From Fimbriimonas sp. (GTDB lineage Bacteria; Armatimonadota; Fimbriimonadia; Fimbriimonadales; Fimbriimonadaceae): DNA of 64,000 nt. Of this stretch, positions 4,333 through 58,239 are shown one piece after another; the stretch's first letter is position 1, and each line of letters opens with the position of its first letter. Where the stretch lies: positions 62,001 to 126,000 of the forward strand of contig JARLGV010000051.1 in NCBI GenBank assembly GCA_031292555.1, given 5' to 3'. A model generated the notes under the pieces. The model worked only from the letters and a program-made list of their open reading frames with translations. It was not told the origin of the DNA and did not search any database. The position numbers and the translations under genes were made by a program.

Positions 4333-5310
4333 TTACCGGGAGGCCCACTCGATCATCCTATCGAATAACCCATCGACTCGCGCGTCGACCTGTTGCCGGG
4401 CCGGATCGGCGAGATGCCAATTGACGATCTCGCGCGCTCCAATCGAGAACGGTACGGTGCACTGGAACTCGGGAACCGCCCGTTTGATCTTCGAATTGTC
4501 GAAGATCGAGCTGTTCGCTTTGTCTCCCAATAGGCCCGCTTCCCACTCCGGCACGAATCGCCCGATCACTTCGGAGGGAACATGGACCTTCTTCGCCTCG
4601 ACGCCGGCTGCTGCCGCCACGAGGTCGTAGATCTGATCCCACGTGAGCCATTCGTCGGACGTGATGTGGTAGGACTCGCCAATCGCATGGGAATTCCCCA
4701 GCAAACCGATGAAGCCCTTGGCGAAATCCGAATGGTGAGTCAGCGTCCAGATCGACGTACCATCGCCGAGAACGACGACCGGCTTCCCAGCCCGCATGCG
4801 CTCGACGACGGTATATCCCCCCTCGAAGGGCAGCAACGTCTTGTCGTACGTGTGGGAGGGGCGCACGATTGTATAAGGGAACTTGCGCTTCTGGTAGGCA
4901 TCGACGAGCATCTCCTCACAGGCAATCTTGTTTCGCGAATACTGCCAATGTGGGTTGTCCAGCAAGGTGGATTCAGTGATCGGGAGCGTCGACGGCGGAG
5001 TCTGATAGGCCGAAGCGGACGAAATGAACACGAATTGCCCCGTCTTGCCCTCGAACAGATCGATGCCGTTCTGAATATGGTCGGTTGTGAAGGCGATCCA
5101 GTCGACGACCGCATCCCACGTGTGTCCTTTCAAGGCGGCTTCTGCCGATGCGCGGTCGCGAATATCGCCGTTCAGCACCTTCACCCCCTGGGGCGTTGGC
5201 CGGTCGCTGTGCCCGCGATTGAGCAGGTAGAGGTCGATCCCCTTGGTGAGGGCCAATGGAGTGCAAGCCGAGCTGATGATTCCGGTGCCACCGATGAAAA
5301 GGACCTTCAT
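4333..5310 (-). CDS. NAD(P)-dependent epimerase/dehydratase, extended SDR family
   Basis: 325 residues. It begins MKVLFIGGTGIISS, a glycine-rich Rossmann nucleotide-binding loop, followed by LLNRG at the end of strand beta2 and by a conserved SSASAY segment. The catalytic pair is visible as YSRNK (Y-x-x-x-K) near residue 124, and VRPSHTY follows as in sugar-nucleotide epimerases. The C-terminal half carries substrate-binding features (YHITSDEWLTWDQIYDLVAAAAG). The substrate cannot be told; family members act on nucleotide sugars or related small molecules in the cytoplasm. It sits 13 bases upstream of the PD40 gene on the same strand, so the two may be co-transcribed. Confidence 0.85.
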   Translation of the reverse strand: MKVLFIGGTGIISSACTPLALTKGIDLYLLNRGHSDRPTPQGVKVLNGDIRDRASAEAALKGHTWDAVVDWIAFTTDHIQNGIDLFEGKTGQFVFISSASAYQTPPSTLPITESTLLDNPHWQYSRNKIACEEMLVDAYQKRKFPYTIVRPSHTYDKTLLPFEGGYTVVERMRAGKPVVVLGDGTSIWTLTHHSDFAKGFIGLLGNSHAIGESYHITSDEWLTWDQIYDLVAAAAGVEAKKVHVPSEVIGRFVPEWEAGLLGDKANSSIFDNSKIKRAVPEFQCTVPFSIGAREIVNWHLADPARQQVDARVDGLFDRMIEWASR

Positions 5311-5426
5311 GTCGCTATTCTGGCGGATTTACAGAGCAAGAGACTTGGGTCTGTCGGTCGGGATGAAACTCGCGCCAACGGGACAGGAATCGGACAGTCG
5401 CTTGAGTTCGTCTGTAGCTAGGACCC

Positions 5427-7301
5427 TTGATCACACCGAACACTGCAAACACAAAGAAAGAGCGATTCTTCACGAACTGGCGGATTGGTCTGATCGGCGT
5501 CTTTGCGTTGACGGTTGTCCTTTACCTGCCATCGCTCATGGGCTTCCCGTTCTGGGACGACCCCGGCCTGATCAACGGCGAGGAGTTCGGGGGCAACACG
5601 ATCGCCGCCGCGCTGACTCACTCCCTCGGGAATTACTACCGCCCTCTGACGTCGCTATCGTTCGTGGTGGATACCATCTACGCCAAGGGCAACCCGTTCT
5701 TCTACCACCAGACGAACATCCTGTTCCATGCCTTTACCGCCGTTCTCATCAGTTGCCTGGCGCTCTTGATCACAAAGAGCCGAGTCGCCGGCATCCTCTC
5801 GGGCGCGTTCTTTGCGGCTCAGCCGCTGCAGCTTGGGGCGGCCGCTTGGATCGGCGGACGGACCGACGTGCTTTCCTCGTTCTTCCTCCTGGGTTTCGTT
5901 ACGGCCCTGGTTCTCTACTTGCGGTCGCCCAAGCCCGGTTGGCTCGTCGTCTCGGTCGTTTCCTTCGTATTGGCGGCATTGGCCAAAGAGCAGGCGATCG
6001 CGATTCTGCCCGTCATTCCGCTCTCGGTGTTTGTCTTTGGAAGCGGTAAGTGGAAGGACGCCGGCAAGCTGTGCATCCCCTTCGGCACGGTCACTGTCCT
6101 CTACTTGCTTCTTTGGGTCACCCACGCGCCACTCCCACCGGCGGCCCATAACACTCTGATCGGCACCGTTACCCTAGCCTTGCGGACGGCAGCTTTCTAT
6201 GGCCTTGGCCTACTTGTCCCCAACCGGCCGTCGCTTGTGACGTTCACACTGGAGAACTACGCGACCGTCCCGTGGATACTTTTCGGAGCCGTGCTGGTTG
6301 CCGTCGGTGCGCTGCTCCTGCGAATGGCGTGGCAGCGAAATCGACCGGTCGCCTTTATCGCGGTTTGCGCCCTTCTGGTCTACATCCCGATCTCGAATTT
6401 CCCAACGATTCCGTCGATGGTCATCGCCTCGTACCGGCTAGGCGAGTCGGGAGCATTCGCCGCCTGCCTGTTCGGCATCTTGGGAGCATGGGCTCTGTCG
6501 ACAAAACGGCAAGCTCTGGGTTGGATCTTGGGCGGCAATCTGGTTCTCGGTCTTGCCGTAACTTGGTGGGGCGTGCATCTATGGCTCACTCCCATGACGT
6601 TCTTTTCGCACGTCGCAAGGACGGATCCGCACTTCATCGTGGGCGACCAGTTCTATGCCAAAGTGCTCGAGACCGCCGGCCGAACGGCGGAGGCGGAGGC
6701 ATGCACGGCCAAGACGGTCGACTGGATCTTTGGTACACCCAACTGGATCGACTTGATCCAGCGGAAGCGAAGTTTGGCAATCGATGAGGACGTGATGCAG
6801 CGTCTTCGCACCAACCTGGGCGTGCCGGTCATTCCGGCCGTCGGCACGTTCATAGGTGAAGACGCGTTCTATCTTGCTCGACTCAACCAGATGGAGAAAG
6901 CCCAGCACATCGCCGCCGACGCACTCGTGATCGCCCCGCGCGACCCTTGGCTGAATTACCTGTACGGGAGGATGACCCTCCACACCGATAGGAGGAAGGC
7001 AATAGGCTACTGGCGAACCGCCATGATGCTTGCACCCGGCTATGCCGATTGCGCCGCTTCCTTGGCTCACGAATTGGTGGTCGACAAGCAGTTCAGGGAA
7101 GCAGCAACTCTGCTCGACAAGGCCCTCGAACCGGGCGACTATCGCGGCGGCGCCTGGCTCGACCTGGCGGATGCCAAGATCGCCCTTGGCGACCCATCCG
7201 GCGCAACCGCCGCGCTAGATAATGCTGAGAAGGCTCTGTTCGCTCCAGCCAAGGCGGATATCCAGAAAAGGCGCGGCACGATCCGGTCGCTTCGCCGGTA
7301 G
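5427..7301 (+). CDS. polytopic membrane protein with C-terminal TPRs, glycosyltransferase (GT39/TMTC)-like
   Basis: 624 residues starting at TTG, with an AGGACC-like ribosome binding site. Around ten hydrophobic segments fill residues 20-400. The first luminal loop contains FWDDPG and then NYYRPLTSLSF, the arrangement seen in GT39/TMTC-type O-mannosyltransferases, where the acidic pair binds the lipid-linked donor. Residues about 470-620 form helical TPR-like repeats (WLNYLYGRMTLH, YADCAASLAHELV, GAWLDLADAKIALGD). The expected role is transfer of a sugar from a polyprenyl phosphate outside the membrane, with the TPR part binding acceptor or partner. It stands at the head of the polysaccharide region. 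The activity is inferred from topology. Confidence 0.7.
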   Translation: MITPNTANTKKERFFTNWRIGLIGVFALTVVLYLPSLMGFPFWDDPGLINGEEFGGNTIAAALTHSLGNYYRPLTSLSFVVDTIYAKGNPFFYHQTNILFHAFTAVLISCLALLITKSRVAGILSGAFFAAQPLQLGAAAWIGGRTDVLSSFFLLGFVTALVLYLRSPKPGWLVVSVVSFVLAALAKEQAIAILPVIPLSVFVFGSGKWKDAGKLCIPFGTVTVLYLLLWVTHAPLPPAAHNTLIGTVTLALRTAAFYGLGLLVPNRPSLVTFTLENYATVPWILFGAVLVAVGALLLRMAWQRNRPVAFIAVCALLVYIPISNFPTIPSMVIASYRLGESGAFAACLFGILGAWALSTKRQALGWILGGNLVLGLAVTWWGVHLWLTPMTFFSHVARTDPHFIVGDQFYAKVLETAGRTAEAEACTAKTVDWIFGTPNWIDLIQRKRSLAIDEDVMQRLRTNLGVPVIPAVGTFIGEDAFYLARLNQMEKAQHIAADALVIAPRDPWLNYLYGRMTLHTDRRKAIGYWRTAMMLAPGYADCAASLAHELVVDKQFREAATLLDKALEPGDYRGGAWLDLADAKIALGDPSGATAALDNAEKALFAPAKADIQKRRGTIRSLRR

Positions 7302-7340
7302 CCGGCAGGGTAAACAGGCGTCGGACCGGCTCGGGAATCA

Positions 7341-7394
7341 CCCGTGAAAGCTTCCTTTTCAGCCCGTGAAACTGTTTCTAGTTTGAGGTCAAAC
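7341..7394 (+). promoter_or_regulatory. candidate operator region upstream of the sugar isomerase gene
   Basis: Between the TPR membrane protein and the isomerase start at 7434 lie a direct repeat CCCGTGAAA (7341-7349 and 7363-7371, 22 bp apart, two helical turns) and two adjacent palindromes: GAAACTGTTTC (7368-7378) and GTTTGA-GG-TCAAAC (7381-7394). This is the texture of a regulator binding region; no cognate regulator is adjacent. The sequence pattern is seen directly; the role is inference. Confidence 0.35.
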
Positions 7395-7433
7395 AATGCC
7401 AAATCTTGAGGTGGATGCGGTAAACCTGGAAGC

Positions 7434-8285
7434 ATGTACATCGGTCTGAGTCCAGGCGCAATTGGCGTCCGCGTCGAGAATTTATCGCAGAGAATCGCAG
7501 CCGCTAAGAACCACGGGTTTGCCGGAGTTGAGATCGATGTCCATGAAGTTGCCAAGCTCGTCGAAGAGGGTGGCGCTGAAAAGATCATCGGCCAATTTCA
7601 AGAAGCCGACGTCATCGCATGCGGCTGGGGACTGCCCACCGATTGGCGGTCGTCTGAGGAAAACTGGAAGCGCGACCTCCAGGAGCTCCCTAAGCTCGCC
7701 AAGGCGGCGGCCGAGATCGGCTGCTATCGCGTCTCAACCTGGATCATGCCTGCTTCGAACGACTTGGAATTCGACGCGAATCTGAAGTTTCACGTCGAGC
7801 GGTTCAAGCCGATCGCCGAGATCGTAGGTGAGTACGGCCACCGTCTGGGACTCGAGTTCGTCGGGCCCAAGACCCTCCGGGATAAGTTCAAGCACGAGTT
7901 CGTGTACGACCTGCCGGGCATGATGAACATGGCCAACTGGATCGGTCCGAATGTCGGACTGCTGTTGGATAGCTGGCACCTCTATACGTCCCATGGCTCG
8001 ATTGCCCAGGTCGAAGAGCTTAGCGAAACCGACATCGTCTACGTCCATGTTAACGACGGCCCCTTGGGCGTACCGGTCGACGAACAGCTTGACGGAGTGC
8101 GTGGCTTACCTGGCGAAACCGGCCTGATCGATATGGCGGGATTCCTTGGCGCCCTCAAGCGAATCGGCTATTCCGGTCCCGTCGTTCCCGAGCCGTTCAA
8201 GAAAGAGCTTGGCGATTTGCCCGACGATTCCGCAAGACTGGATCTGGTCGCCGAGAGCATGAGGAAGATTTTCAACCTGATTTAG
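7434..8285 (+). CDS. sugar phosphate isomerase/epimerase (xylose isomerase-like TIM barrel)
   Basis: 283 residues. ATG at 7434 follows a GGAAG ribosome binding site. The sequence follows the AP-endonuclease-2/xylose-isomerase-like TIM barrel: LGLEFVGP (metal-ligand Glu on a strand), LLLDSWHLY (Asp and His ligands), IVYVHVNDG (strand with His) and YSGPVVPEPF (last strand with Glu). These four positions normally bind one divalent metal for aldose-ketose or epimerase chemistry, or inositol catabolism. The exact substrate is unknown. It lies between two membrane proteins of the polysaccharide region but has its own regulatory-looking upstream segment. Confidence 0.85.
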   Translation: MYIGLSPGAIGVRVENLSQRIAAAKNHGFAGVEIDVHEVAKLVEEGGAEKIIGQFQEADVIACGWGLPTDWRSSEENWKRDLQELPKLAKAAAEIGCYRVSTWIMPASNDLEFDANLKFHVERFKPIAEIVGEYGHRLGLEFVGPKTLRDKFKHEFVYDLPGMMNMANWIGPNVGLLLDSWHLYTSHGSIAQVEELSETDIVYVHVNDGPLGVPVDEQLDGVRGLPGETGLIDMAGFLGALKRIGYSGPVVPEPFKKELGDLPDDSARLDLVAESMRKIFNLI

Positions 8286-8462: not shown

Positions 8463-9935
8463 ATGGTATTCAGTTCCCAGATTTTCGCGTTCTACTTTCT
8501 GCCCCTTTCACTAGCCGTTTACTATTCCCTGTATCGCGCGTCTCAACGTGCCCGCAATCTCTGTCTGGCCGTCCTCGGCTACATCTTCTATGGATGGGTG
8601 AACCCCAAGTTCATCTTCCTCATGTTCGGAACCACGTTCCTGGACTGGCTCCTAAGCCTCGTGATCGCCTATAACTCCTGGCGGTTTTGGTCTCAATGGA
8701 AGGGCGTCCTCGGCGAACTGCCCAAGGCGGAACGAACCAAACGTCAACGAACGGCGCTCACGCTGTCGATCGTTTCGAACCTGTTGATGCTCGGGTTCTT
8801 CAAGTATTTCAACTTCTTCCTCGACACCTACAATGGAGCCGTCGTCGCATCGGGCGCCCCGCAACTGCATTGGGACACGTTCTTTCGCGTAGTCCTGCCG
8901 TTAGGGATCAGCTTCTACACCTTTCAATCGCTGAGCTATATCATCGACGTCTATCGTGGCGACGCGAAGGCGATGCGCAACTTCGTCGACTTCTCGTGTT
9001 TCGTGTCGATGTTCCCGCACCTGGTCGCCGGTCCGATCCTAAAGTTCTCCTTCCTGGCCGGACAGATCGAGCACCGTGCCCTCACCCTGGACAAGTTCTC
9101 GCGCGGTTCCGCGTTTTTTATGCTGGGAATGGCCAAGAAGATTCTGTTGGCGAATCCGTGCGGGAAGGTCGCAGACATCGCCTTCAATGCCCATTCGGTC
9201 CATCCCGCCGACGCCTGGTTTGGGGTGGTCAGCTATGCCTTCCAGATATTTATCGACTTCAGCGCCTATTCCGACATGGCGATCGGCCTCGGCCTCATGT
9301 TCGGGTTTGTGTTTGCCAGGAACTTCGACTCCCCCTACCGCTCCGCGTCGATCGGAGAGTTCTGGCGCCGCTGGCACATCTCGCTCTCCACGTGGCTTCG
9401 CGAATATCTTTATATTCCCCTCGGCGGCAACCGAAAAGGCAAGGTTCGAACCTATATCAACCTCTTCCTCACGATGCTCCTTGGCGGTCTTTGGCATGGC
9501 GCGTCGTGGAACTTCGTCATATGGGGCGGAATCCACGGCACGTCACTCGCGGCTGAGAGGGGCCTAGGCGACGATCACGCCTACTTCAAACTTCCCAAAT
9601 TGCTTCGCGGCGCCATCACTTTCTTCATCGTCCTCGTCGGCTGGGTGTTCTTCCGGGCCGCCGATTTCCCGAAGGCGGCAACCTACCTGGCCTCGATGTT
9701 CGGACTGGGCCCCCGCCACGCGGAAGCCTCTCTCATTGCCGGGATCCTATACAAGCCGTACTACCTTCTGGCGTTTGGCCTCGCCGCCGTCATGATCTGG
9801 TTCGTCCAAGACACGTGGGAGTGGACTCAGAACCTGACGAAAGCCAAGTCGCTCTGCTGCGTCGGCGTCTTCCTCGTCGCCATTGCCGTCCTCGTAACTC
9901 AAGAATACAACCCGTTCATCTACTTCATCTTCTAA
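8463..9935 (+). CDS. MBOAT family O-acyltransferase, AlgI-like
   Basis: 490 residues with about ten membrane segments. It starts with FSSQIFAFYFLPLSL, the usual start of AlgI-type membrane-bound O-acyltransferases. The conserved active-site region reads LLGGLWHGASWN with His345 as the expected catalytic histidine; upstream are RRWHISLSTWLREYLYIPLGGNR (shown in parts: RRWHISLS, YIPLGGNRKG) and DFSAYSDMAIGL, all family signatures. In alginate and cellulose systems AlgI/WssH passes acetyl groups across the inner membrane to periplasmic SGNH acetyltransferases. Two such SGNH proteins follow directly (gap of 4 bases), so an O-acetylation unit for an exported polysaccharide is strongly suggested; the polymer is unknown. 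Confidence 0.93.
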   Translation: MVFSSQIFAFYFLPLSLAVYYSLYRASQRARNLCLAVLGYIFYGWVNPKFIFLMFGTTFLDWLLSLVIAYNSWRFWSQWKGVLGELPKAERTKRQRTALTLSIVSNLLMLGFFKYFNFFLDTYNGAVVASGAPQLHWDTFFRVVLPLGISFYTFQSLSYIIDVYRGDAKAMRNFVDFSCFVSMFPHLVAGPILKFSFLAGQIEHRALTLDKFSRGSAFFMLGMAKKILLANPCGKVADIAFNAHSVHPADAWFGVVSYAFQIFIDFSAYSDMAIGLGLMFGFVFARNFDSPYRSASIGEFWRRWHISLSTWLREYLYIPLGGNRKGKVRTYINLFLTMLLGGLWHGASWNFVIWGGIHGTSLAAERGLGDDHAYFKLPKLLRGAITFFIVLVGWVFFRAADFPKAATYLASMFGLGPRHAEASLIAGILYKPYYLLAFGLAAVMIWFVQDTWEWTQNLTKAKSLCCVGVFLVAIAVLVTQEYNPFIYFIF

Positions 9936-9939
9936 CGCC

Positions 9940-11886
9940 ATGAGCGACGCCCAACCCACCAAACCGACGCGGAGACTTCACAAGACTCGTGAAGAGGAAG
10001 CGGACCGGTGCCTGAATCACACGAGCTTCTCACCGGGAAGCCAGGCGATTCTGGCCGGGTTCTTTCTGCTGATCGTCTTCGGCATACCGTTGCTCCAGCA
10101 TGTCGTCGAGATTCGGCGAAATGTCGATGCACGGCAACATTGGAGCCCCAAGGGCGGAGAGCCCGAGCCCAAGCTGCTTCCTCAGGTCTACGACGTCCTT
10201 TCGCTGTTGCCGTCCAAGGAGCGAATCGACGAGGCGAAGGGATTCTGGGGCTACTGGTCGCTGATCCCGAGCGGCGAGAGCATCAGTGCCTTCGAGACAT
10301 CGCTCAAGGAAAACTCGATCCTGACCAAAGCCCTGCTGGCCCCCGCCCAAGCGGCCATGAGCGGCACGCTGGGGGTTGGAAACGAGAAGGCCTATTGCGG
10401 CCGTGACGGATGGCTTTTCTATCGGCCTGACGTCGAATACCTGACGTCGGACGGCTTCCTCGACCCCAAGCGACTATCCTCGCGCGCCCGGGGTGCGACG
10501 CCGATCCAACCCGATCCGGTGGTCGCGATCCTAGATTTGGGCTCGCAATTGCGCGAGCGCGGAATCTCGCTCGTCGTTGTGCCGGTAACCACCAAGCCGA
10601 TGATCGAGCCAGACATGCTGGCCGGCCCCTCGGCTGCCGGCATCGAACTCCAAAACCCCTCGTTCGGCAAGTTTGAGAGTGCGCTTCGCGCCGGCGGCGT
10701 TACTGTGTTCGACCCGACCCCCGTCTTGCGGGAAGAGGAGGCTAGCACAGGCCATCGGCAATATCTCACGACCGACACCCACTGGACGCCCGAGGGGTTG
10801 GAGGCGGTCGCCCAAGGGCTCGCCGCGATACTCGAAACCAAAGGGATGCAGCCCAAGACGCACTCGAACGCCTACTCGTCCAAGCGACAGCCTGTTGCAA
10901 ACGTGGGCGACATCGCGGAGATGCTAAAGCTCCCGCCAGGCCAAACGCTATTTCCCAAGCAAGAAGTACTCGTCAGGCACGTTTCCAATCCCGACGGATC
11001 AGACTGGAAGCCGGACCGCCGCGCAGACGTTCTGCTCCTGGGAGACAGTTTCTCGAACATCTACTCGGTGGAAAGGATGGGATGGGGCCGCAGCGCCGGA
11101 TTGGCCGAGCAACTGAGCTACTCGCTGGGTCGGCCGGTCGATACGATCGCAATCAACGCCGGCGGCTCGTTCGCCTCGCGGCGGGCCCTCGCTCAGCAGC
11201 TTGCCCAAGGCGTCGACCGGCTCGCCGGAAAGAAGGTAGTCGTCTACGAATTCTCGATGCGCGACCTGACGGAGGGCGATTGGAAGCTCATTCGATTGGC
11301 TCATCCCGCTCCCACGTCCCAACCTGTCCCACCGGCGCCGAAGCAACCGGCGGTGAACCCCCAGGGACCAAACACTCCAAGCCAAACGGTAGTCAAGCCT
11401 ACTCAGCCGGCTAATCAAGCCACTCAGGTAACCACCCCCGTGAAGCCGACTGCCCAACCGCCTACCAAGCCCCTGACCGGTACGAAGCCGCCGGTCGCCA
11501 ACCCGGCGAAGGGACTGAAACCTCCTGCCAACCCGCCGTCGCACCCGGCGAAATCGGAGGGATTGGTCGTTGCCGGGCGGATCGTTGCCAAGGCAAATGC
11601 TCCCAAGCCGGGCTCGGTACCCTACAAGGACTGCTTGATCGCGCTGCAGATCAGCGACCTGAAAGTCACGGGAGGCAACATTAAGGGTCCCAATATCGTT
11701 GTGTACGTGTGGGGAATGAAGGATAACCAACTGGTCGACGGAGCGTATTCGGCCGGGCAGACAGTCACCATCAAGCTGGTCCCATGGGCGTCCGTCGACT
11801 CCAAATACGGCGGACTCAACCGACAGGAACTGGATTCCGACGATTCGCTGTCTTGGGAAGCGTTCTGGGGCGAACTAAACAGATGA
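9940..11886 (+). CDS. AlgJ/AlgX-like SGNH acetyltransferase with Pro/Thr-rich linker and extra C-terminal domain
   Basis: 648 residues, starting 4 bases after the MBOAT stop. A single membrane anchor lies at about residues 32-50. The SGNH-like AlgX/AlgJ domain shows GRDGWLFY (about 148), DTHW (Asp279-His281) and LLGDSF (Ser370 as nucleophile), which supply the Ser-His-Asp set that moves acetyl groups to polysaccharide. Residues about 455-545 are a linker very rich in Pro, Thr and Lys. The last 100 residues are a separate domain that resembles the C-terminus of the LamG-like protein at 14652-15626 (see findings). It is probably periplasmic and membrane anchored, receiving acetyl from the MBOAT partner. 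Confidence 0.85.
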   Translation: MSDAQPTKPTRRLHKTREEEADRCLNHTSFSPGSQAILAGFFLLIVFGIPLLQHVVEIRRNVDARQHWSPKGGEPEPKLLPQVYDVLSLLPSKERIDEAKGFWGYWSLIPSGESISAFETSLKENSILTKALLAPAQAAMSGTLGVGNEKAYCGRDGWLFYRPDVEYLTSDGFLDPKRLSSRARGATPIQPDPVVAILDLGSQLRERGISLVVVPVTTKPMIEPDMLAGPSAAGIELQNPSFGKFESALRAGGVTVFDPTPVLREEEASTGHRQYLTTDTHWTPEGLEAVAQGLAAILETKGMQPKTHSNAYSSKRQPVANVGDIAEMLKLPPGQTLFPKQEVLVRHVSNPDGSDWKPDRRADVLLLGDSFSNIYSVERMGWGRSAGLAEQLSYSLGRPVDTIAINAGGSFASRRALAQQLAQGVDRLAGKKVVVYEFSMRDLTEGDWKLIRLAHPAPTSQPVPPAPKQPAVNPQGPNTPSQTVVKPTQPANQATQVTTPVKPTAQPPTKPLTGTKPPVANPAKGLKPPANPPSHPAKSEGLVVAGRIVAKANAPKPGSVPYKDCLIALQISDLKVTGGNIKGPNIVVYVWGMKDNQLVDGAYSAGQTVTIKLVPWASVDSKYGGLNRQELDSDDSLSWEAFWGELNR

Positions 11887-12914
11887 TTCAAGCACTAGCA
11901 TTCATGATTGCATCAGGCGGCGCCCTGGCACGGCCTCCGCTCGCCGGACCCGCGGACTTCCGTGCGGCCATCTCGCAACTCGTCGACAAGGCCACGAAGG
12001 ACGCCTCCAACGTCGTTCAGGGAAAGGACGGCTGGCTGTTCTTCGTGCCCGAACTGCACCACCTGAGCGTGAGCGCCTTCTGGGGCGATGCGGCGGCCAA
12101 AGTGAGCAAGGCGGCGAACCCCGCGTATGCCGACCCGCTCCCCGCGATTCTGGATTTCAAGTCGCAACTCGACAAGAAAGGGATCACGCTTTTGGTTGTG
12201 CCCGTCCCGGCGAAGGCCTCCATCTATCCGGACAAGCTGGTCGACGGCGCCGCCAATACGGCAGAGGCGCGCCTCGACTCGGCCGATGCGGAATTCCTCC
12301 AGATGCTCAAGGGGGACTCGATTCCGGTGATTGACCTCACGCCGGACTTTCTCGCTTACCGGGCGGCCCACCCGGCAAATCCGCTCTACTGCCAGGAGGA
12401 CACGCACTGGTCCGGATACGGCATCGCGTTGGCGACCGACCGAATCGCAAAGGCCATCCAGGCACAGTCCTGGCTCTCCGGCGTAGAAAAGGCGAAGCTG
12501 ACAAGCGCTCCCCTGACCATCACCGCATCCGGCGACTTGGTCACGATGCTGACGGGGGCGAAACCGGCGCCCGAACGAATTGCCTTGACCAAGGTCACCG
12601 ACGCCAAAGGAGCGGTCGTAACCTCATGGCGCGAGAGTCCGGTTGTGCTGCTGGGTGATAGCCACAACCTGATCTACTCGATCGGAGACGACATGCTGGC
12701 GGTCGGATCGGGTTTGCCGGAAAACCTCGCGGCCAAGCTCGGATTCGCACCTGACGTCGTCGCGGTCCGCGGATCGGGAGCGACGCCGGCGCGAGTGAAC
12801 CTCGCTCGCCGTGGAGACAGCCTGGCGGGCAAAAGAATCGTCGTATGGTGTTTCACCGTGAGGGAATTCACCGAAGGGCAAGGGTGGCGCAAAGTCCCCG
12901 TCATCAAGCCATGA
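11883..12914 (+). CDS. second AlgJ/AlgX-like SGNH protein
   Basis: 343 residues. The true start is ATG at 11883, overlapping the upstream TGA (ATGA), which signals translational coupling. An N-terminal hydrophobic stretch IQALAFMIASGGALA is a likely signal peptide. The same motif order as the upstream protein is present: GKDGWLFF, DTHW (Asp173-His175) and LLGDSH (Ser260). It is shorter, lacking the Pro-rich linker and C-terminal domain. Two SGNH enzymes next to one AlgI-like protein recall the AlgJ/AlgX pair in alginate acetylation, where both are needed for acetylation. Whether this copy is an acetyltransferase or an acetylesterase cannot be told from motifs. Confidence 0.82.
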   Translation: MIQALAFMIASGGALARPPLAGPADFRAAISQLVDKATKDASNVVQGKDGWLFFVPELHHLSVSAFWGDAAAKVSKAANPAYADPLPAILDFKSQLDKKGITLLVVPVPAKASIYPDKLVDGAANTAEARLDSADAEFLQMLKGDSIPVIDLTPDFLAYRAAHPANPLYCQEDTHWSGYGIALATDRIAKAIQAQSWLSGVEKAKLTSAPLTITASGDLVTMLTGAKPAPERIALTKVTDAKGAVVTSWRESPVVLLGDSHNLIYSIGDDMLAVGSGLPENLAAKLGFAPDVVAVRGSGATPARVNLARRGDSLAGKRIVVWCFTVREFTEGQGWRKVPVIKP

Positions 12915-12922
12915 ACAGAATC

Positions 12923-12937
12923 GCTGGCGGAGCCAGC
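12923..12937 (+). other. short intergenic hairpin
   Basis: GCTGGC-GGA-GCCAGC is a perfect 6-bp stem with a 3-base loop in the 46-base gap between the second SGNH gene and the esterase-like gene. There is no T-tract; it may protect the upstream mRNA 3' end or attenuate read-through. Confidence 0.4.
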
Positions 12938-12960
12938 AAACCTAGGGATCGTCGACATTA

Positions 12961-14655
12961 ATGCGGAATTTTTATTTCTTTATCCAACTCAGAACAGCAA
13001 TTTGCCTGACAGTTGCGTCACTTGCCGTCTGTTCGTTTGCGGCCGGCTCCGGTAGCCAGAGCCTCGATCAGATCGGGATGTTCGATCTCAAAGCGATTCG
13101 CCAAGTCCCTCTGGACGTCGAGACACTTTCGAAAACGAAGCAAGGTGACGTAACCATCGAGGAGGTCCGGTACACCTCCCTTCCCGGAGTTCGGATCTAC
13201 GCGATCCTCACCTACAAAGAGAGTCTGAAGGCGGCGCCCGGATACATGGTCGTCGAGCGATTCCGGGTCAAGCCCTTGGTCGCGGAAGCGAAGAACGGGT
13301 TCTTTGGCATCGCGGTCGCGCCCCCCACCGGCAATACGGACCCTACCAAGCACGACTCGGTAGGTGGCCCCAAGTACAAGCAGCCATTCAGCATCAACCA
13401 GCAGTTCCTGGAAGATAAAAATGAGAGCTACATCTACCAGTACACGGTTGCCCTCCTAAGGATGCTGGACTACTTGTCGACTCGGTCCGAGGTGAATCTC
13501 GCGACTACGATGGTTTCCGGTTACTCATGGGCGGGAACGATGGTCGGCTTGCTCCATGCGCTGGACGACCGGCCGAATTGCTACTTCATCTATCACGGTC
13601 TCGGCTATCACACCGACGAGAACGGCCTTTCCGGCGGCGTACCTGCCGTGATGAGCCGGAAGCTCTATGAGATGTACTGCCCGGCCGCCTATGCACAGTA
13701 CGGGACAAAGCCGCTATGGGTCGGCGTTGCCCTCGACGACTACTACACCAAAATCGACTCGATCATGGAGACCTACGATCACCTCAAATGCGAAAAGGTG
13801 TTCGTGTACGTACCGAACCGCCATCACACCGAGACGGCGCGGCACGAATTCAAGGGCTACGTGAACTGGGAATCGCACTGGCAGTTCGGCCTCGACAAGC
13901 CCAGTTCGATCAGTGACGGGACGGTGAAAGCGAGCAACGGGAAGCTAGTCTACACCTGCTCAATCGACGCCAAAGACGCGATCGTGCACTCCGAGATCTT
14001 CGTCAGCTATGGCAAGGCGGGGGACTGGATGGGCCGCACTTGGCATCGGTTCGCGCTTGTCAAAAGAGGCGACGGCTACGAGGCGGAGATTCCGGTCTAT
14101 AGCCCGTCGGTTCCCCTCTACGTCGTGGCCCAGATCGAGACTGAGAAGTTCGGCACCGTCGGCAACGGTATCCAATACGTCGAGCCCACGGCCCTCGGAA
14201 TCGCCGCATTGAACGCCGCCTATCCCAGCGCACTCTTCGATCCGTCGCTCAAGGACGACCTTTACATCCGCACTGGCGATATCACGTGGAGTGACGACGG
14301 GCCGGAAGGTAAGGGCTCCGCGATCGTATCGCCCGGACAGGAGGGAACGATCACCTTCCAGAACATCGACGGTGACCTCTGGGAGGGCAAGCAAGTTCTA
14401 GACATCTGGCTCAAGGGCGACGGTCAACCCGGTCCCATCCGCGCCTATTTTGCCTCGCACCCCAACTACTATGTCGAGATCGGAAAGGGGAACACGACGG
14501 AAATCGACCTCGTGCCCACGGGATTCAAGTTCGCGAACGGTTGGAAGGAGTACGCAATTCCGCTCCGCACAATCAAGAACCTCTCGCAAGTGTCTACTCT
14601 GTTCCTCGACGCGAACAAGCGCAACCTTCAGATCGGCCCCATCACCCTCCGATGA
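12961..14655 (+). CDS. secreted alpha/beta-hydrolase (esterase-like) with C-terminal beta-sandwich
   Basis: 564 residues with an N-terminal signal peptide (LRTAICLTVASLAVCSFAAG). The first two thirds read as an alpha/beta hydrolase: the nucleophile elbow GYSWAG has Ser189, an acidic residue follows in GVALDDYYT, and a histidine lies in NRHHTET. This resembles PhoPQ-activated/acetyl-xylan-esterase-like hydrolases. The last 120 residues (from about GTITFQNIDGDLWEG) look like a carbohydrate-binding beta-sandwich. In context it could remove acetyl or other ester groups from the polymer modified by the upstream enzymes; that is inference. Its stop overlaps the next start (ATGA at 14652). Confidence 0.7.
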   Translation: MRNFYFFIQLRTAICLTVASLAVCSFAAGSGSQSLDQIGMFDLKAIRQVPLDVETLSKTKQGDVTIEEVRYTSLPGVRIYAILTYKESLKAAPGYMVVERFRVKPLVAEAKNGFFGIAVAPPTGNTDPTKHDSVGGPKYKQPFSINQQFLEDKNESYIYQYTVALLRMLDYLSTRSEVNLATTMVSGYSWAGTMVGLLHALDDRPNCYFIYHGLGYHTDENGLSGGVPAVMSRKLYEMYCPAAYAQYGTKPLWVGVALDDYYTKIDSIMETYDHLKCEKVFVYVPNRHHTETARHEFKGYVNWESHWQFGLDKPSSISDGTVKASNGKLVYTCSIDAKDAIVHSEIFVSYGKAGDWMGRTWHRFALVKRGDGYEAEIPVYSPSVPLYVVAQIETEKFGTVGNGIQYVEPTALGIAALNAAYPSALFDPSLKDDLYIRTGDITWSDDGPEGKGSAIVSPGQEGTITFQNIDGDLWEGKQVLDIWLKGDGQPGPIRAYFASHPNYYVEIGKGNTTEIDLVPTGFKFANGWKEYAIPLRTIKNLSQVSTLFLDANKRNLQIGPITLR

Positions 14656-15626
14656 TCTCCTTCACTCTCGCCGCATCGCTCGTCCTCTACGGATTCTCGC
14701 AAGGGAATCCGGCCCCCGGCCCCCACTGGCCGCTGGTCCCGGATCCCCTCTTTGCGGTGAACGGGATCGCCCACGGCGAGGCCGGATTGCAGCATGTCTC
14801 GGTCGCCGTCCGGAATGACGGCGCAACCGTGGTGAAGCCGGCGGAGCTCAAAGACCCGACCAGTTCCGAGGTCACGCTTCCGCCCGGGCTGTCCCGTTGG
14901 CGGACGATCGAGGTGATGTTCACGTCCGCCGCCGACGGCACCCTCCTTTCCTTCGGGGACCTTTCTGTTGCGGTCAAGCAGGGACGCCTCTGGTTTGCGC
15001 GAAACGGGCACATGTGGGATATTGCCCCGCTCAAAGCGGACAGCCTGAACGACGTCCAACTGGTCACCCATCTGGACTCCTATTTGGCGTACGTCAACGG
15101 CCAGCGCTCGGCCCAGACGATCACGGTACCGGCGGCCATCGTTCCGATGCAAGTTGGACTGGATACCTGGAAGGGCTCGGTGATCGGGGTGTGCGGCTAT
15201 GCCAAGGAGCTATCGGAAGACGAGGTCGTCGCCAACCTGCACGCCGGCCAGGCGGTCGCCAAGGCGGTCTACGCGGATACCAAGACGGTGACGATTGAGG
15301 CCGAGCTTGGCGCTTTCACCGCCGTTCCCGAACTGAGCCAGATCGCTCCGTATCGGAGTGCGTTGGTCGCCGAGGAGTACAAAATCCTTCGCATCTCCAA
15401 AGGCCGGATGGCGGCCCTCAAAGAAGGCATGAAGGTCCGAATCTTCCGATGGGGCCTCAAGGCAGGCGACAAAACCGACATTGCCAAGATCAAAACCGGC
15501 GACAAGGCGACAATGGTCATCCAACCCCTAAGCGCCGATCCGAAGTACGAAAAGGAGTTCCAGGTCGACACTCTGGACGGCGACATCTCCGCCCTCTATT
15601 TCGTAGACGTAACCCCAGCGCCGTAA
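14652..15626 (+). CDS. secreted LamG/concanavalin-like protein with locus-specific C-terminal domain
   Basis: 324 residues. The start at 14652 overlaps the previous stop as ATGA, so it is coupled to the esterase-like gene. A signal peptide (MISFTLAASLVLYGFSQG) precedes a LamG-like jelly roll: WRTIEVMFTSAADGTLLSFGD, LNDVQLVTHLDSYLAYVNGQ and QVGLDTWKGSVIGVCGY are the usual strands of that fold, seen in laminin-G/pentraxin-like carbohydrate-binding domains. The final 110 residues form a separate domain related to the C-terminus of the SGNH protein at 9940-11886. The likely role is binding the exported polysaccharide or assembling the acetylation complex; this is inference. Confidence 0.65.
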   Translation: MISFTLAASLVLYGFSQGNPAPGPHWPLVPDPLFAVNGIAHGEAGLQHVSVAVRNDGATVVKPAELKDPTSSEVTLPPGLSRWRTIEVMFTSAADGTLLSFGDLSVAVKQGRLWFARNGHMWDIAPLKADSLNDVQLVTHLDSYLAYVNGQRSAQTITVPAAIVPMQVGLDTWKGSVIGVCGYAKELSEDEVVANLHAGQAVAKAVYADTKTVTIEAELGAFTAVPELSQIAPYRSALVAEEYKILRISKGRMAALKEGMKVRIFRWGLKAGDKTDIAKIKTGDKATMVIQPLSADPKYEKEFQVDTLDGDISALYFVDVTPAP

Positions 15627-15673: not shown

Positions 15674-16507
15674 TTACTTATCCCAACCGGTCGAAACGAT
15701 GAGGGTGGGGTTGAAGAACGACTTGTCGGGGATGGATCCCTTGAACGAGTAGCCGCCCCTCATTTCGAGGTTGACGGATAGATTGAGCTTCTTGAAAACG
15801 TAAGCGAGACCGGGGCCGGCTTCTACTCGGTTCTCCGTGCCGACGGTGTCCCGGCCGGAGATCCAGCCCTGACCGACAAGGTAGAGCCAGAAGTAGTTGC
15901 CGTCCTTGTCTTTCGTGAGGATCTGGCCGCTTCGGAACCGCAAATCGGCAAATGTATCCGACTGGAGCGCGATGTAGAACAATTCGCCGTACACGTCGGT
16001 AAACGCCTTATCGTGGGTCCAGTTTGTGTATCCGACCATGCCGTACCGGGTGTCGGTGCGACCCGAAAAAGGACCGGCGATCGTGTCGCCCGTTTCGACG
16101 GTGGCGAACATCTGGTTGCCCGGGAACCAGTGGCGGGCGGCGATTCCGATCGTCGTTCCCTGCACGGCCTGCGGATACGGAAGGCCGGTGCCACGCGTGT
16201 CCAGCGTCGTGTTGCGGAAAAAGCCGGTAAGGTCGTCTTGGCCGTATCGGACGCCCGCGTGAATGATCTGGTCGCTGAAGACGCCGATCAGTTTCTCGTA
16301 TCCGGCGTCAAAGTAACCCGACTCGATGAACCGCAGCTTGGGAGGCGGCGCGGCGGGCTTGGCCGCCGTTTGGGCCGCCGTCTTCGGCGCACTCACCGCC
16401 GGCACACCCATGCCTCCCGGCATAGCCGGTACTAGGGTTGGGAGGGAGGGGGCGACAGCCGCGTAGCTTGCCACCAACTTGGCCGATGCGAGAACTGTGG
16501 GGATCAT
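15674..16507 (-). CDS. probable outer-membrane beta-barrel protein
   Basis: 277 residues. An N-terminal hydrophobic region is followed by an Ala/Pro/Lys-rich linker (residues about 30-55). The rest alternates polar and hydrophobic residues with many aromatic girdle residues (YFDAGYEKL, IHAGVRYG, AYVFKKLNLSVNLEMRGGYSF) and ends with LIVSTGWDK, as in small beta-barrels. The aromatic pattern recalls the C-terminal barrel domain of NfrA-type polysaccharide exporters, but this is only a resemblance. It is convergent to the acetylation cluster and could be its export pore; function is inferred from context. Confidence 0.5.
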   Translation of the reverse strand: MIPTVLASAKLVASYAAVAPSLPTLVPAMPGGMGVPAVSAPKTAAQTAAKPAAPPPKLRFIESGYFDAGYEKLIGVFSDQIIHAGVRYGQDDLTGFFRNTTLDTRGTGLPYPQAVQGTTIGIAARHWFPGNQMFATVETGDTIAGPFSGRTDTRYGMVGYTNWTHDKAFTDVYGELFYIALQSDTFADLRFRSGQILTKDKDGNYFWLYLVGQGWISGRDTVGTENRVEAGPGLAYVFKKLNLSVNLEMRGGYSFKGSIPDKSFFNPTLIVSTGWDK

Positions 16508-55565: not shown

Positions 55566-55736
55566 CTATCTGCCTCTCGACTCCGGCTTCGGATCGCCAC
55601 TCTGGTCGGCGACCTTCTGTAGGGCGTCCTTCTTGGCCTTCTGCTGATCGACGGAAACTTCGCCCGACATCGCAGAACAGCCCATTGCAAACACCATAAG
55701 TGCCAATGCGCCAATTGCAAATAGCGCTCGCTTCAT
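55566..55736 (-). CDS. small lipoprotein, partner of pilin-like protein (module 1)
   Basis: 56 residues from ATG at 55736, whose A is the last base of the upstream TAA stop (TAATG), so the two genes are translationally coupled. The signal peptide KRALFAIGALALMVFAMGC ends in a lipobox Cys20. The mature peptide is about 37 residues, charged and helical (VSVDQQKAKKDALQKVAD) with a Pro-rich end. Its paralogue lies at 57014-57175. Function unknown; it might hold or chaperone the pilin-like protein at a membrane. Confidence 0.75.
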   Translation of the reverse strand: MKRALFAIGALALMVFAMGCSAMSGEVSVDQQKAKKDALQKVADQSGDPKPESRGR

Positions 55737-56683
55737 TACTGGAGGCCCCACATTGGCCAAGGCTGCGTCCAGGCCGGCGTTCCGTTGCCATAGTAGGCTG
55801 CGGTGATCGGGCAGAGATAGTGGTTGAAGCTCAGGCCGAACTGGGCTGCCGTCGGAGTGTTGGCAAGGAACTGACCAGCGGCGATCGTCTTTGCATGGCC
55901 GTCGCAGTAGCTAAGCGGCACCTGGCCTGCGAATGGAACCGTAGTGGCATCGATCTGGCCCACTTGCTCGCCGCAAGGACCGGATCCGCCCGGATTGTAG
56001 AAGTAACCCGACCAGTGCTCACGAACGGCCATCGGGTAGTAGGTTAGGCTGTAGCCGCCGGACGTCGTACCGGCTTCATAGCCGCCGACCACCGAGTAGG
56101 TCGTTTGCTCCATGATCAGCATCGTATCTGCCGGCTGCGGAACTGACGTCGTCGAGCCGCCGAGCCAAGAGGTGCGTCCGCCGAACTTCGCCAGGGCGCC
56201 AGTTGAGAGATTGACGTTCAGAGCGCCGGTGATCGCGATGTTGAGCGCATAGCCACCGTTAAGTTCGCCCTGAGCCCATCCCGTCGGATCCTTCTGAATC
56301 ACCGGGTGCATGAACAAGCCGTAGTTCTTGGTGTAGGGATAGGCCCACTTCTGCCACTCATAATGATTGTCCCGGAATGCGTATCCGCCATTGTTTCCGT
56401 TCGCACCGGTGCAGAAAGGCAACGGGCTTGTTCCGGCAGGCTGGTTATCGTAGGCCGTATTAATAGAGTCGTTCAACGTACATCCATCCTCTCGAGGATA
56501 CATGTCGTCGTAGTCGCCGGCATACATGATCAGGGCTAGGCCTTGCTGCTTTTGATTTGAGATGGAAACGGCTTTCTTGGCGGCCTGCTTTGCCTGGGCA
56601 AAGACCGGGAAGAGGATCGCCGCCAGAATCGCGATGATCGCGATGACGACAAGAAGCTCAATAAGAGTAAATGCTTTTTTCAT
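55736..56683 (-). CDS. prepilin-type (DUF1559-like) surface protein, module 1
   Basis: 315 residues from ATG at 56683 with GGAGAT upstream. The N-terminus [20 protein letters not shown] is a type IV prepilin signal (cleaved before Phe, Glu5 of the mature protein), continuing into FPVFAQAK. The C-terminal part carries YCDGHAK, the conserved DGH motif of this large Planctomycetes/Armatimonadota pseudopilin family, and Gly/Tyr/Asn-rich loops. It should be processed by a prepilin peptidase and assembled or anchored on the surface. A paralogue in tandem lies at 57181-58173. Assembly genes are not in the window. Confidence 0.92.
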
Positions 56684-57013
56684 GCTATCTCCGAAAGATT
56701 GCGCCACGTAGATTGATTATCTGGTCAAATTCGAGGGCTTCGGCGCCCCAATTCCTACGGGTGACATTATCTTCTCCGAATGTTAAGAGATTGTCAAGCA
56801 ACCGTCCGAATTAGCGCAAGAAAACCTCCCCGCCGACTCGCCAGTGAATCTGCGAGGAGGGAGATAGCAGCCACCCAACTGAAGCCTTCGCCTGCCTAGC
56901 GTCGACGCGATGTCGACGATAGGCGGGATTCGGTAAGAGCCAGGTGGCCCGATGTATCCGTCAAATTTAAGGAATGCGCAGACCGGGTTAGACGGTCCGC
57001 GCATTCCTATCGT
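56684..57013 (-). other. intergenic region between the two pilin modules
   Basis: Holds the terminator-like hairpin at 56971-57007 and, on the minus strand, TTGACA (56797-56792) with a weak -10, plus a CTTAACAT octamer that is also found upstream of the other pilin gene. No gene. Confidence 0.5.
56971..57007 (-). terminator. terminator-like hairpin after module 2
   Basis: GGAATGCGC-(A/G)-GACCG, loop GGTTAGA, CGGTC-(C)-GCGCATTCC: a 14-bp stem with one mismatch, 7 bases after the stop of the small lipoprotein at 57014. On the minus strand it is followed by TTAAATTT, a weak U-tract. Confidence 0.75.
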
Positions 57014-57175
57014 CTAGAGTTGGGTGTGTCCGTCCGATCGGCCCGGATGTTCTTTCAGCCACTTCTGCTGGTCGGCGGCATTCTTCTGAACGTCGTTGAC
57101 CGAAACACTGCCGGTGCATCCGCTAACAAACAGGCCAAAGACTGCCGCTGCCAATAGGAGCGCGATCGTCCTCAT
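57014..57175 (-). CDS. small lipoprotein, partner of pilin-like protein (module 2)
   Basis: 53 residues, ATG at 57175, 5 bases after the stop of the upstream pilin-like gene. Translation: signal peptide RTIALLLAAAVFGLFVSGC with lipobox Cys20, then TGSVSVNDVQKNAADQQKWL and a short polar end. It mirrors the 56-residue lipoprotein of module 1 in position, length, lipobox and a VSV-x-(D/N)-type start to the mature helix, so it is very likely a real gene missed by length cutoffs. Function unknown. Confidence 0.75.
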   Translation of the reverse strand: MRTIALLLAAAVFGLFVSGCTGSVSVNDVQKNAADQQKWLKEHPGRSDGHTQL

Positions 57176-57180
57176 CAGAC

Positions 57181-58173
57181 TTAGAGCCCCCACATCGGGA
57201 ACGCGCCTTGACCGATATTGAGCGCCGGCGTTACTTGCGCGCTACCGAATCCATAGGCTGCAAAGAACCCGCAAACGTGGGTATCGAGCGACTGACCGAC
57301 GTATTGCTGATAGGTCGGGGTGTTCGCGAGGAACTGACCGACCGGAATGGCCTTGGCATGTCCATCGCAGTACGTGATCGGCACTACGCCGAACGGCGCC
57401 TTGGTCGTATCGACAACGCCGGGCTGGACGCCGCAGTCGCCTGTGCCGCCGCTCTTCTCGTACATGAACTCCCAGTGCTCTTTGAACGCAGGCGGCCAGT
57501 ATGGAGTGGTCGAGCCGCCGTAGAAGGTCTCCCATCCCCCCGTCACGACTTCGAACCACTGCTCCGTAATGAGCAGAGCCTCAGCTGGAGACGGTACGCC
57601 AGTTTGAGTGCCACCGACGAACGACTGCCGAACGGCGCCGTAGTTCGTGTAAGGAGGTCCCGCATAGCCCCAAGTGTTCTGTGCGCCGGTAATCGCGATA
57701 TTCAGCGCGTAGCCGCTTGCAATCTCGCCTTGGTCCAGGTTGGTGGGTACGCCGTTTGAAACCACGGTGCCATAAATCGGAGGAAGCACGGGGTGATAGA
57801 AGATCTGCACATTCTTGATGTACGGCATGATCCACTTGCCCCATGAGTAGTGGTTGTCGCGGAACGCATAGCCGCCGAGGCCCCCAGCGCCAGTTCCATT
57901 GCAGAACGGCGTGGGATTTGAACCCGCCGGCTGATTGTTCCACTTCGTTTCGAGAGAATCGTTCAGGGAGCAGCCGTCGGTGTGCGGATACATGTCGTCG
58001 TAGTCCGCCGAGTACATCGTAATACCCAGGCCGAACTGCTTGTTGTTGGAGATCGAGACGGTCTTCTTGGCGGCGAGTTTCGCCTGGGCAAAGACCGGGA
58101 AAAGAATGGCGGCGAGAATCGCGATAATGGCGATGACGACGAGAAGTTCGATAAGCGTAAACGCTTTCTTCAT
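57181..58173 (-). CDS. prepilin-type (DUF1559-like) surface protein, module 2
   Basis: 330 residues from ATG at 58173, with GGAGGAAGT as ribosome binding site. N-terminal prepilin helix identical in pattern to module 1, running into [22 protein letters not shown]; later [36 protein letters not shown] and [20 protein letters not shown] match module 1 closely. The two genes are tandem duplicates with diverged middle parts. A promoter-like sequence lies upstream (58240-58268). Role: pseudopilin or minor surface filament subunit, by family. Confidence 0.93.
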
Positions 58174-58239
58174 ACTTCCTCCGGAAAGCAAAGTGAATCG
58201 GATTGCACAGAATTGCGGAGACCTGGACCAGCCTCCACG

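Follow-up and report, generated by a model that had tools for sequence, protein, structure and literature searches.

Which polymer is acted upon by an acetylation operon that contains no glycosyltransferase? This question is raised by positions 8463-15626 of a 64,000-nucleotide stretch of DNA from Fimbriimonas sp. (assembly GCA_031292555.1, contig JARLGV010000051.1, positions 62,001 to 126,000), which is here called the window and forms part of a 6.46 Mb draft genome labelled G000. Five open reading frames on the forward strand encode an MBOAT O-acyltransferase of the AlgI/PatA type (8463-9935, 490 amino acids), two SGNH proteins, SGNH1 (9940-11886) and SGNH2 (11883-12914, 343 amino acids), a secreted alpha/beta hydrolase (12961-14655) and a secreted LamG-like protein (14652-15626). 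The answer that we favour, with moderate confidence, is that this operon encodes a periplasmic apparatus for O-acetylation, equipped with a deacetylase and a lectin and acting on the exopolysaccharide of an unlinked NfrB-type synthase.

As read from the sequence, the MBOAT and SGNH1 genes are separated by 4 bases, SGNH1 and SGNH2 share a 4-base ATGA overlap and SGNH2 and the hydrolase gene are separated by 46 bases. The hydrolase and LamG genes are joined by a second 4-base ATGA overlap, present again in the related loci L161 and L162. Longer mechanical starts were available for SGNH2 (11784) and the LamG gene (14541), and the starts adopted were 11883 and 14652. The open reading frames, the gaps and the two overlaps agree with an earlier note on this DNA, which had described five ATGA-coupled or tightly spaced genes; they also agree with its statement that the operon holds no glycosyltransferase or alginate gene, although no search for alginate genes was made genome-wide. 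Four further genomes of the genus have the genes in this order, which is therefore more than a chance arrangement.

The acetyl-relay motifs look intact at the sequence level. The MBOAT protein matched PF03062 (E 4.4e-26) and its closest solved relatives in a search of the PDB were DltB chains (E 2.9e-24). His345 of the WHG motif is conserved, and the C-terminal FIYFIF at residues 485-490, which includes Tyr487, represents the FXYXXF acyl-shuttle motif. The C-terminal FXYXXF motif of PatA carries an acetyl-tyrosine, and this was suggested also for alginate and cellulose systems (PMC12148441, available part). SGNH1 and SGNH2 matched PF16822 ALGX (E 1.9e-32 and 3.2e-29 respectively) and carry the DTHW and GDS motif residues, D279, H281 and S370 in the former and D173, H175 and S260 in the latter. 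The two are paralogous and align over ∼306 residues with 31% identity (E 1e-37). The best PDB match of SGNH1, an AlgJ-like acetyltransferase with an N-terminal membrane anchor judged by eye and a proline-rich linker, was AlgJ (E 1e-8), followed by AlgX (E 1e-4). No counterpart of the C-terminal carbohydrate-binding module of AlgX was detected in SGNH2 with Pfam; of the 344 residues searched the ALGX match extends to residue 323, therefore there is no room for a further domain and the protein ends with the SGNH domain. With both the MBOAT and the SGNH parts recognised, the operon is by its sequence a member of the MBOAT-SGNH acyltransferase class, and the AlgI/AlgJ/AlgX plan proposed in the earlier note is upheld; it is not a member of the alginate or cellulose systems proper. 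A second MBOAT gene was located elsewhere in the same genome (L088:10226-12495, G000:C19); its product ends with FIYFQF and it overlaps a gene for a 295-amino-acid GDS-motif protein without an ALGX match. This set is probably another acylation system.

The hydrolase, previously noted as a secreted esterase-like enzyme, was compared with known families by sequence and by fold. AXE1 (PF05448) was not among its Pfam matches at E ≤ 1, and the match to PF10142 PhoPQ_related (E 8.7e-4, 18.5 bits) fell below the curated cut-off of 20.3. A structural model was built from eight alignment rows, with a mean predicted local distance difference test (pLDDT) score of 76. Acetyl xylan esterases/cephalosporin C deacetylases were the best matches of this model in Foldseek (E 8.6e-13) and occupied rows 1-20 in VIA-align (Z 20.9-22.6, 252-262 residues, root-mean-square deviation (rmsd) 3.2-3.8); row 21 was a truncated variant (Z 19.5), followed by other hydrolases and S9 peptidases at Z ≤ 17.4. 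In most rows the comparison covered residues 33-311, short of the C-terminal part. These enzymes we take to be members of CE7, a label which appears in the title of entry 7xmj. The hydrolase is thus modelled with a CE7 acetyl xylan esterase fold and a Ser-Asp-His triad, and the esterase-like assignment holds on model, Foldseek and VIA-align alike. It resembles CE7 esterases in fold (Z up to 22.6) and in the Ser-Asp-His order, but PF05448 is not matched, the aligned rows show 11-15% identity, and there is an extra C-terminal β-rich part of ∼250 residues, which is possibly carbohydrate-binding. Judged from the model, peptidase activity may also be compatible with the fold.

Ser189, Asp260 and His289 were each kept in 14 of 15 alignment rows. 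The sole exception, a paralogue in genome G123 (L033:13939-15663) in tandem with intact copies, has lost all three together, and these residues are therefore assigned as the catalytic triad. This triad-less paralogue is perhaps now a binding protein.

The fifth protein carries a LamG/concanavalin-A-like lectin domain. PF13385 Laminin_G_3 exceeded its cut-off in the homologues L034 (G068), L163 (G097) and L033:8345 (one of the two in G123), and a weak model (pLDDT 51) resembled lectin domains of the concanavalin A type (highest Z 15.4, 171 residues, rmsd 3.1) over residues ∼21-209, matches that are tentative owing to the model, which was too weak to judge the remainder. These data appear to support the LamG-like assignment made earlier. 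The C-terminal ∼115 residues of SGNH1 and of the LamG protein are alike (E 4e-6 in a two-sequence comparison); this domain, here termed CD, is encoded at 11536-11883 and 15258-15623 and was not recognised in the earlier note. Searched with a 26-row alignment, CD matched none of the Pfam families, nor any PDB entry below E 1. Similarly, no AlgF family was found among the Pfam matches of the five operon proteins or the 26 CD domains, and no AlgF chain in the PDB search.

CD was fused or adjacent to SGNH1 at 16 of 18 MBOAT loci, fused at eight and adjacent at eight (partial in L101). The 18 loci read came from 17 of the 37 ALGX-bearing genomes of the phylum, and the second MBOAT of G000, which lacks ALGX, was excluded. 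The two loci without CD (L091 and L096) stop at contig edges, and L091 seems by eye to begin a CD lipoprotein; the stand-alone form likewise looks like a lipoprotein by eye (L090, L095 and L098). AlgF, which is small and non-enzymatic, mediates the contact between AlgJ and AlgX in alginate systems (PMC10641220, in the portion available), and by analogy CD may be its counterpart. Further copies were observed: a lone CD in a 136-residue open frame elsewhere in G000 (L087:10215-10622, G000:C79), CD-like ends on a 476-amino-acid GDS-start protein and a 1065-amino-acid weak-LamG protein (L102:2581-4011 and 4738-7935, G097:C9), and a PKD-LamG-CD protein near an MBOAT locus in another family, outside the esterase clade (L098:13740-16112, G066).

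To define how widely this arrangement is held, presence was counted among 291 genomes of the phylum, with E ≤ 1e-20 as the cut-off for a full-length esterase. Such homologues were found in seven genomes, all seven with ALGX, while 30 of the 37 genomes with ALGX had none. The esterase and LamG genes are therefore a clade-specific addition, and the earlier description of a system of this phylum was too broad. A wider distribution was considered and rejected; E ≤ 0.001 gave 27/151, but outside G000, G123, G068 and G097 the matches were partial (E 3e-13 or weaker, at most ∼365 query residues). The outcome for the conservation of the esterase and LamG genes with MBOAT, on which the earlier note let its reading stand or fall, was thus mixed: within the genus they occur together in all five ALGX-bearing genomes, and across the phylum most genomes with ALGX lack the full-length esterase. 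The order in these five genomes is MBOAT, SGNH1-CD, SGNH2, esterase and LamG-CD, with one, one, two, two and three esterase copies; in G123 the third copy comes after the first LamG gene, and the row closes with another LamG-CD gene. The esterase and LamG genes of G068 are on the MBOAT contig, ∼9 kb upstream of MBOAT with an AXE1 gene between, and those of G097 are on a different contig from MBOAT. An AXE1 gene (PF05448) and a gene for a 747-amino-acid glycosidase-like protein with no Pfam match lie between two esterase copies of G068 (L034:7739-13095).

A wider contig scan with the esterase gave at least 73 loci, of which four were long relatives (L161-L164, 42-61%), all Armatimonadetes; the other 69 listed were partial matches (E 3e-8 or weaker). 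The matches listed miss the carriers G068, G123 and G183, and so do not show that the esterase is absent outside the phylum. In an MBOAT tree the genus five formed a clade (100/100), but the esterase-bearing genomes together did not (three changes). G068 paired with G077 of family f29, a genome in which the esterase was not found at E ≤ 1e-20. G097 was placed apart from both groups; its MBOAT diverges at the C-terminal end, possibly through a frame break. As the tree parts the esterase-bearing loci of two families, the association is not one inherited MBOAT block alone.

Downstream of the operon and convergent to it, at 15674-16507 on the reverse strand, lies a gene for a barrel-like protein, which the earlier note had not described. 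Its presence pattern and neighbours make it a candidate outer-membrane export pore. It was detected in 11 of the 291 genomes (E ≤ 0.001), and seven of the 11 homologues end in Phe. The gene is convergent after the operon in G000, G123 and G183, and directly upstream of MBOAT in G068 and G097; in G185 and G182 it is found close to a contig end, as is the cluster, and the two may be neighbours there as well. Four barrel genomes lack ALGX, and in two of them, G105 and G115, the barrel gene is beside a GT2 gene.

An NfrB-type GT2 protein was found at E ≤ 1e-60 in the same 11 genomes as the barrel, and in five genus genomes without the barrel there was none at E ≤ 1e-10. Three GT2 proteins compared with E. 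coli NfrB shared 37-39% identity over about 460-474 residues, and all three copies in G000 carry the DAED, TEDY and QKxRW signatures. HEAT repeats occur where NfrB has its cyclic di-GMP domain; neither MshEN nor PilZ was among the Pfam matches of three GT2 proteins, no match to BcsA or PgaC was obtained at E ≤ 1e-3 for the three compared with NfrB, and the NCBIfam NfrB model matched below its cut-off. A BcsB gene adjoins GT2 at 10 of 15 loci read; Pfam was run on three, those beside the GT2 genes of G000, with PF03170 at E 6.4e-40, 5.6e-37 and 6.5e-36. BcsB was detected at E ≤ 4.4e-17 in 10 of the 11 GT2 genomes, the remaining one, G115, having the barrel and GT2. Weak matches in G232, G057 and G122 (E 1.2e-4 to 7.3e-4; 21.5 against a cut-off of 21 bits in G057) were judged to be chance. 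A GH42 gene adjoins one synthase locus.

Of the 20 genus genomes, five contain the whole set of ALGX, esterase, barrel, GT2 and BcsB at the thresholds used, and the other 15 contain none of it. Across the phylum ALGX was present in seven of the 11 GT2 genomes and in 30 of the 280 others (Fisher p 7e-5, uncorrected for relatedness). From this presence pattern and the barrel-like neighbour, the polymer is most likely the product of the NfrB/BcsB-type synthase, which narrows what had been called an unknown polymer, although its chemistry is only inferred. A polymer of N-acetylmannosamine has been postulated for E. coli NfrB (PMC8669472, available part). WecB, the UDP-GlcNAc 2-epimerase (PF02350), was uninformative as to this substrate, being present in 24/24 genomes with or without the synthase. 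Alginate-type acetyltransferase genes lie inside the nfr cluster of Simplicispira suum (PMC8669469, in the part of the article at hand), which by analogy is an independent precedent for acetylation tied to nfr.

These data suggest that the operon probably adds acetyl to, and removes it from, a secreted sugar polymer. The MBOAT protein would take acetyl from acetyl-CoA and load it onto Tyr487 of the FIYFIF tail, and SGNH1, anchored at the inner membrane, together with an unanchored periplasmic SGNH2 would pass it to hydroxyls of the growing chain in a relay like that of AlgI-AlgJ-AlgX, with CD presumably in the place of AlgF as a docking part of the complex. The chain would be polymerised by the NfrB-type GT2 with its BcsB-type periplasmic partner and may exit through the barrel encoded beside the operon. 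The esterase would trim acetyl groups and the LamG protein would hold the polymer, both meeting the same complex by way of the CD that the LamG protein has in common with the transferase. A more specific proposal, which we offer as a conjecture and consider doubtful, is that CD is an unrecognised docking module doing the work of AlgF in Armatimonadota, bringing SGNH1 and the lectin, with its translationally coupled esterase, into a single complex. This complex would set how far the polymer is acetylated, the polymer itself coming from a hybrid NfrB-BcsB synthase with scattered yet co-inherited genes.

Several observations weigh against this reading. The synthase and BcsB genes of G000 are on other contigs than the operon, and the 11 GT2 genomes span only four genera of two families, therefore few independent events are represented. 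The synthase can do without the machine, since four of these 11 lack ALGX, and as 30 ALGX genomes lack this GT2 such MBOAT/SGNH genes serve other polymers too. G223 and G224 have the barrel without an adjoining synthase. The barrel protein of the window has no TPR match and no Pfam family, and its homology to NfrA, BcsC or PgaA was unsupported by hhalign (probability below 1%). Within the operon, the fold of the hydrolase does not show its substrate, and the LamG-like protein of the window exceeds the cut-off of no Pfam family and was poorly modelled. The MBOAT open frame of G097 is without the C-terminal motif.

Some of these points would suit a machine that O-acetylates peptidoglycan or another envelope polymer, of the PatA/PatB or secondary-polymer type, with the NfrB/BcsB genes and the barrel merely sharing a clade of larger genomes. 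MBOAT-SGNH pairs do so elsewhere (PMC12148441, in the section available), the synthase loci are unlinked to the operon, the GT2 genomes are few and related, and ALGX occurs where this GT2 does not. However, the two SGNH proteins show the AlgJ/AlgX division, the barrel-like gene adjoins the operon in three genomes and directly precedes MBOAT in two, and the barrel is found in exactly those genomes that have the GT2; we regard this explanation as unlikely. The lack of a glycosyltransferase in the operon would also suit a second alternative, in which the machine acetylates the exopolysaccharide of a different pathway, Wzy-type or of another synthase, and NfrB/BcsB makes a second polymer. Three GT2/BcsB sets in the genome suggest several polymers, and other members of the phylum have MBOAT/SGNH/CD loci without this GT2. 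Set against the all-or-none occurrence of machine and synthase in the genus (5/20 versus 15/20), and against the barrel that links the two sets, this possibility appears somewhat less likely again.

The conserved 4-base esterase/LamG overlap, the strict co-occurrence of the esterase with ALGX (7/7) and the CD common to the LamG protein and SGNH1 argue against a further proposal, in which the esterase and LamG protein scavenge acetylated polysaccharide of plants or algae and lie beside the acetylation genes without a common substrate. The acetyl xylan esterase fold would fit such a role, the AXE1 gene and the unlinked esterase copies of G068 and G097 look catabolic and a GH42 gene adjoins a synthase locus, but it seems to us as improbable as a polymer from a different biosynthetic pathway. 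Acetylation of the NfrB/BcsB-type product is the reading retained here.

Upstream of the operon, at 7434-8285 on the forward strand, is a gene for a Xylose-isomerase-like TIM barrel protein (PF01261, E 1.3e-25). In four of the five genus genomes a gene that agrees with it in length and position, the sole criteria used, lies upstream of MBOAT; G123 has none there, and a tie between this protein and the acetylation system is conjectural. Elsewhere in the window were observed a TPR protein with a sulfotransferase domain (58306-60162; PF13469, E 8.6e-36) and two genes with nearly identical prepilin-like N-termini (55736-58191).

In comparison with known systems, the operon shares with the Pseudomonas AlgI-AlgJ-AlgF-AlgX machine an MBOAT protein, a membrane-anchored and a free SGNH acetyltransferase with the same catalytic motifs, and a small non-enzymatic fourth part encoded adjacently, CD being in the AlgF position. 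It differs in having no AlgF family match, in an SGNH2 without the AlgX carbohydrate-binding module, in the fusion of CD to SGNH1, in the added esterase and lectin and in a synthase that is unlinked and NfrB-like. The E. coli Nfr (NGR) system, NfrB-NfrA-YbcH, has a similar synthase with TED and QxxRW and an outer-membrane-barrel-like partner, and a published nfr cluster also includes acetyltransferase genes of the alginate type (PMC8669469, available part). Unlike E. coli Nfr, the genes here are scattered, the synthase has HEAT repeats, no MshEN match and a BcsB-type partner, and the barrel is a short one that lacks TPR and could not be aligned with NfrA. Bacterial cellulose systems (Bcs, WssFGHI) have in common the BcsB partner and MBOAT-SGNH acetylation of a synthase-made polymer, but the catalytic subunit here is of the NfrB type, neither BcsA (at E ≤ 1e-3) nor PilZ being matched, and no BcsC-type TPR pore was seen.

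The phylum is hardly studied, and in the literature searched no account of extracellular polymers of Armatimonadota was found. If the proposal is correct, it would tie synthase, pore and modification machine together in a testable way; as their genes lie apart, cluster-limited searches miss such a tie. The MBOAT-SGNH plan would gain an acetyl esterase dedicated to it and a CD module common to two of its proteins, and the operon would offer a natural comparison for why acetylation of alginate and cellulose needs the non-enzymatic AlgF/WssG part.

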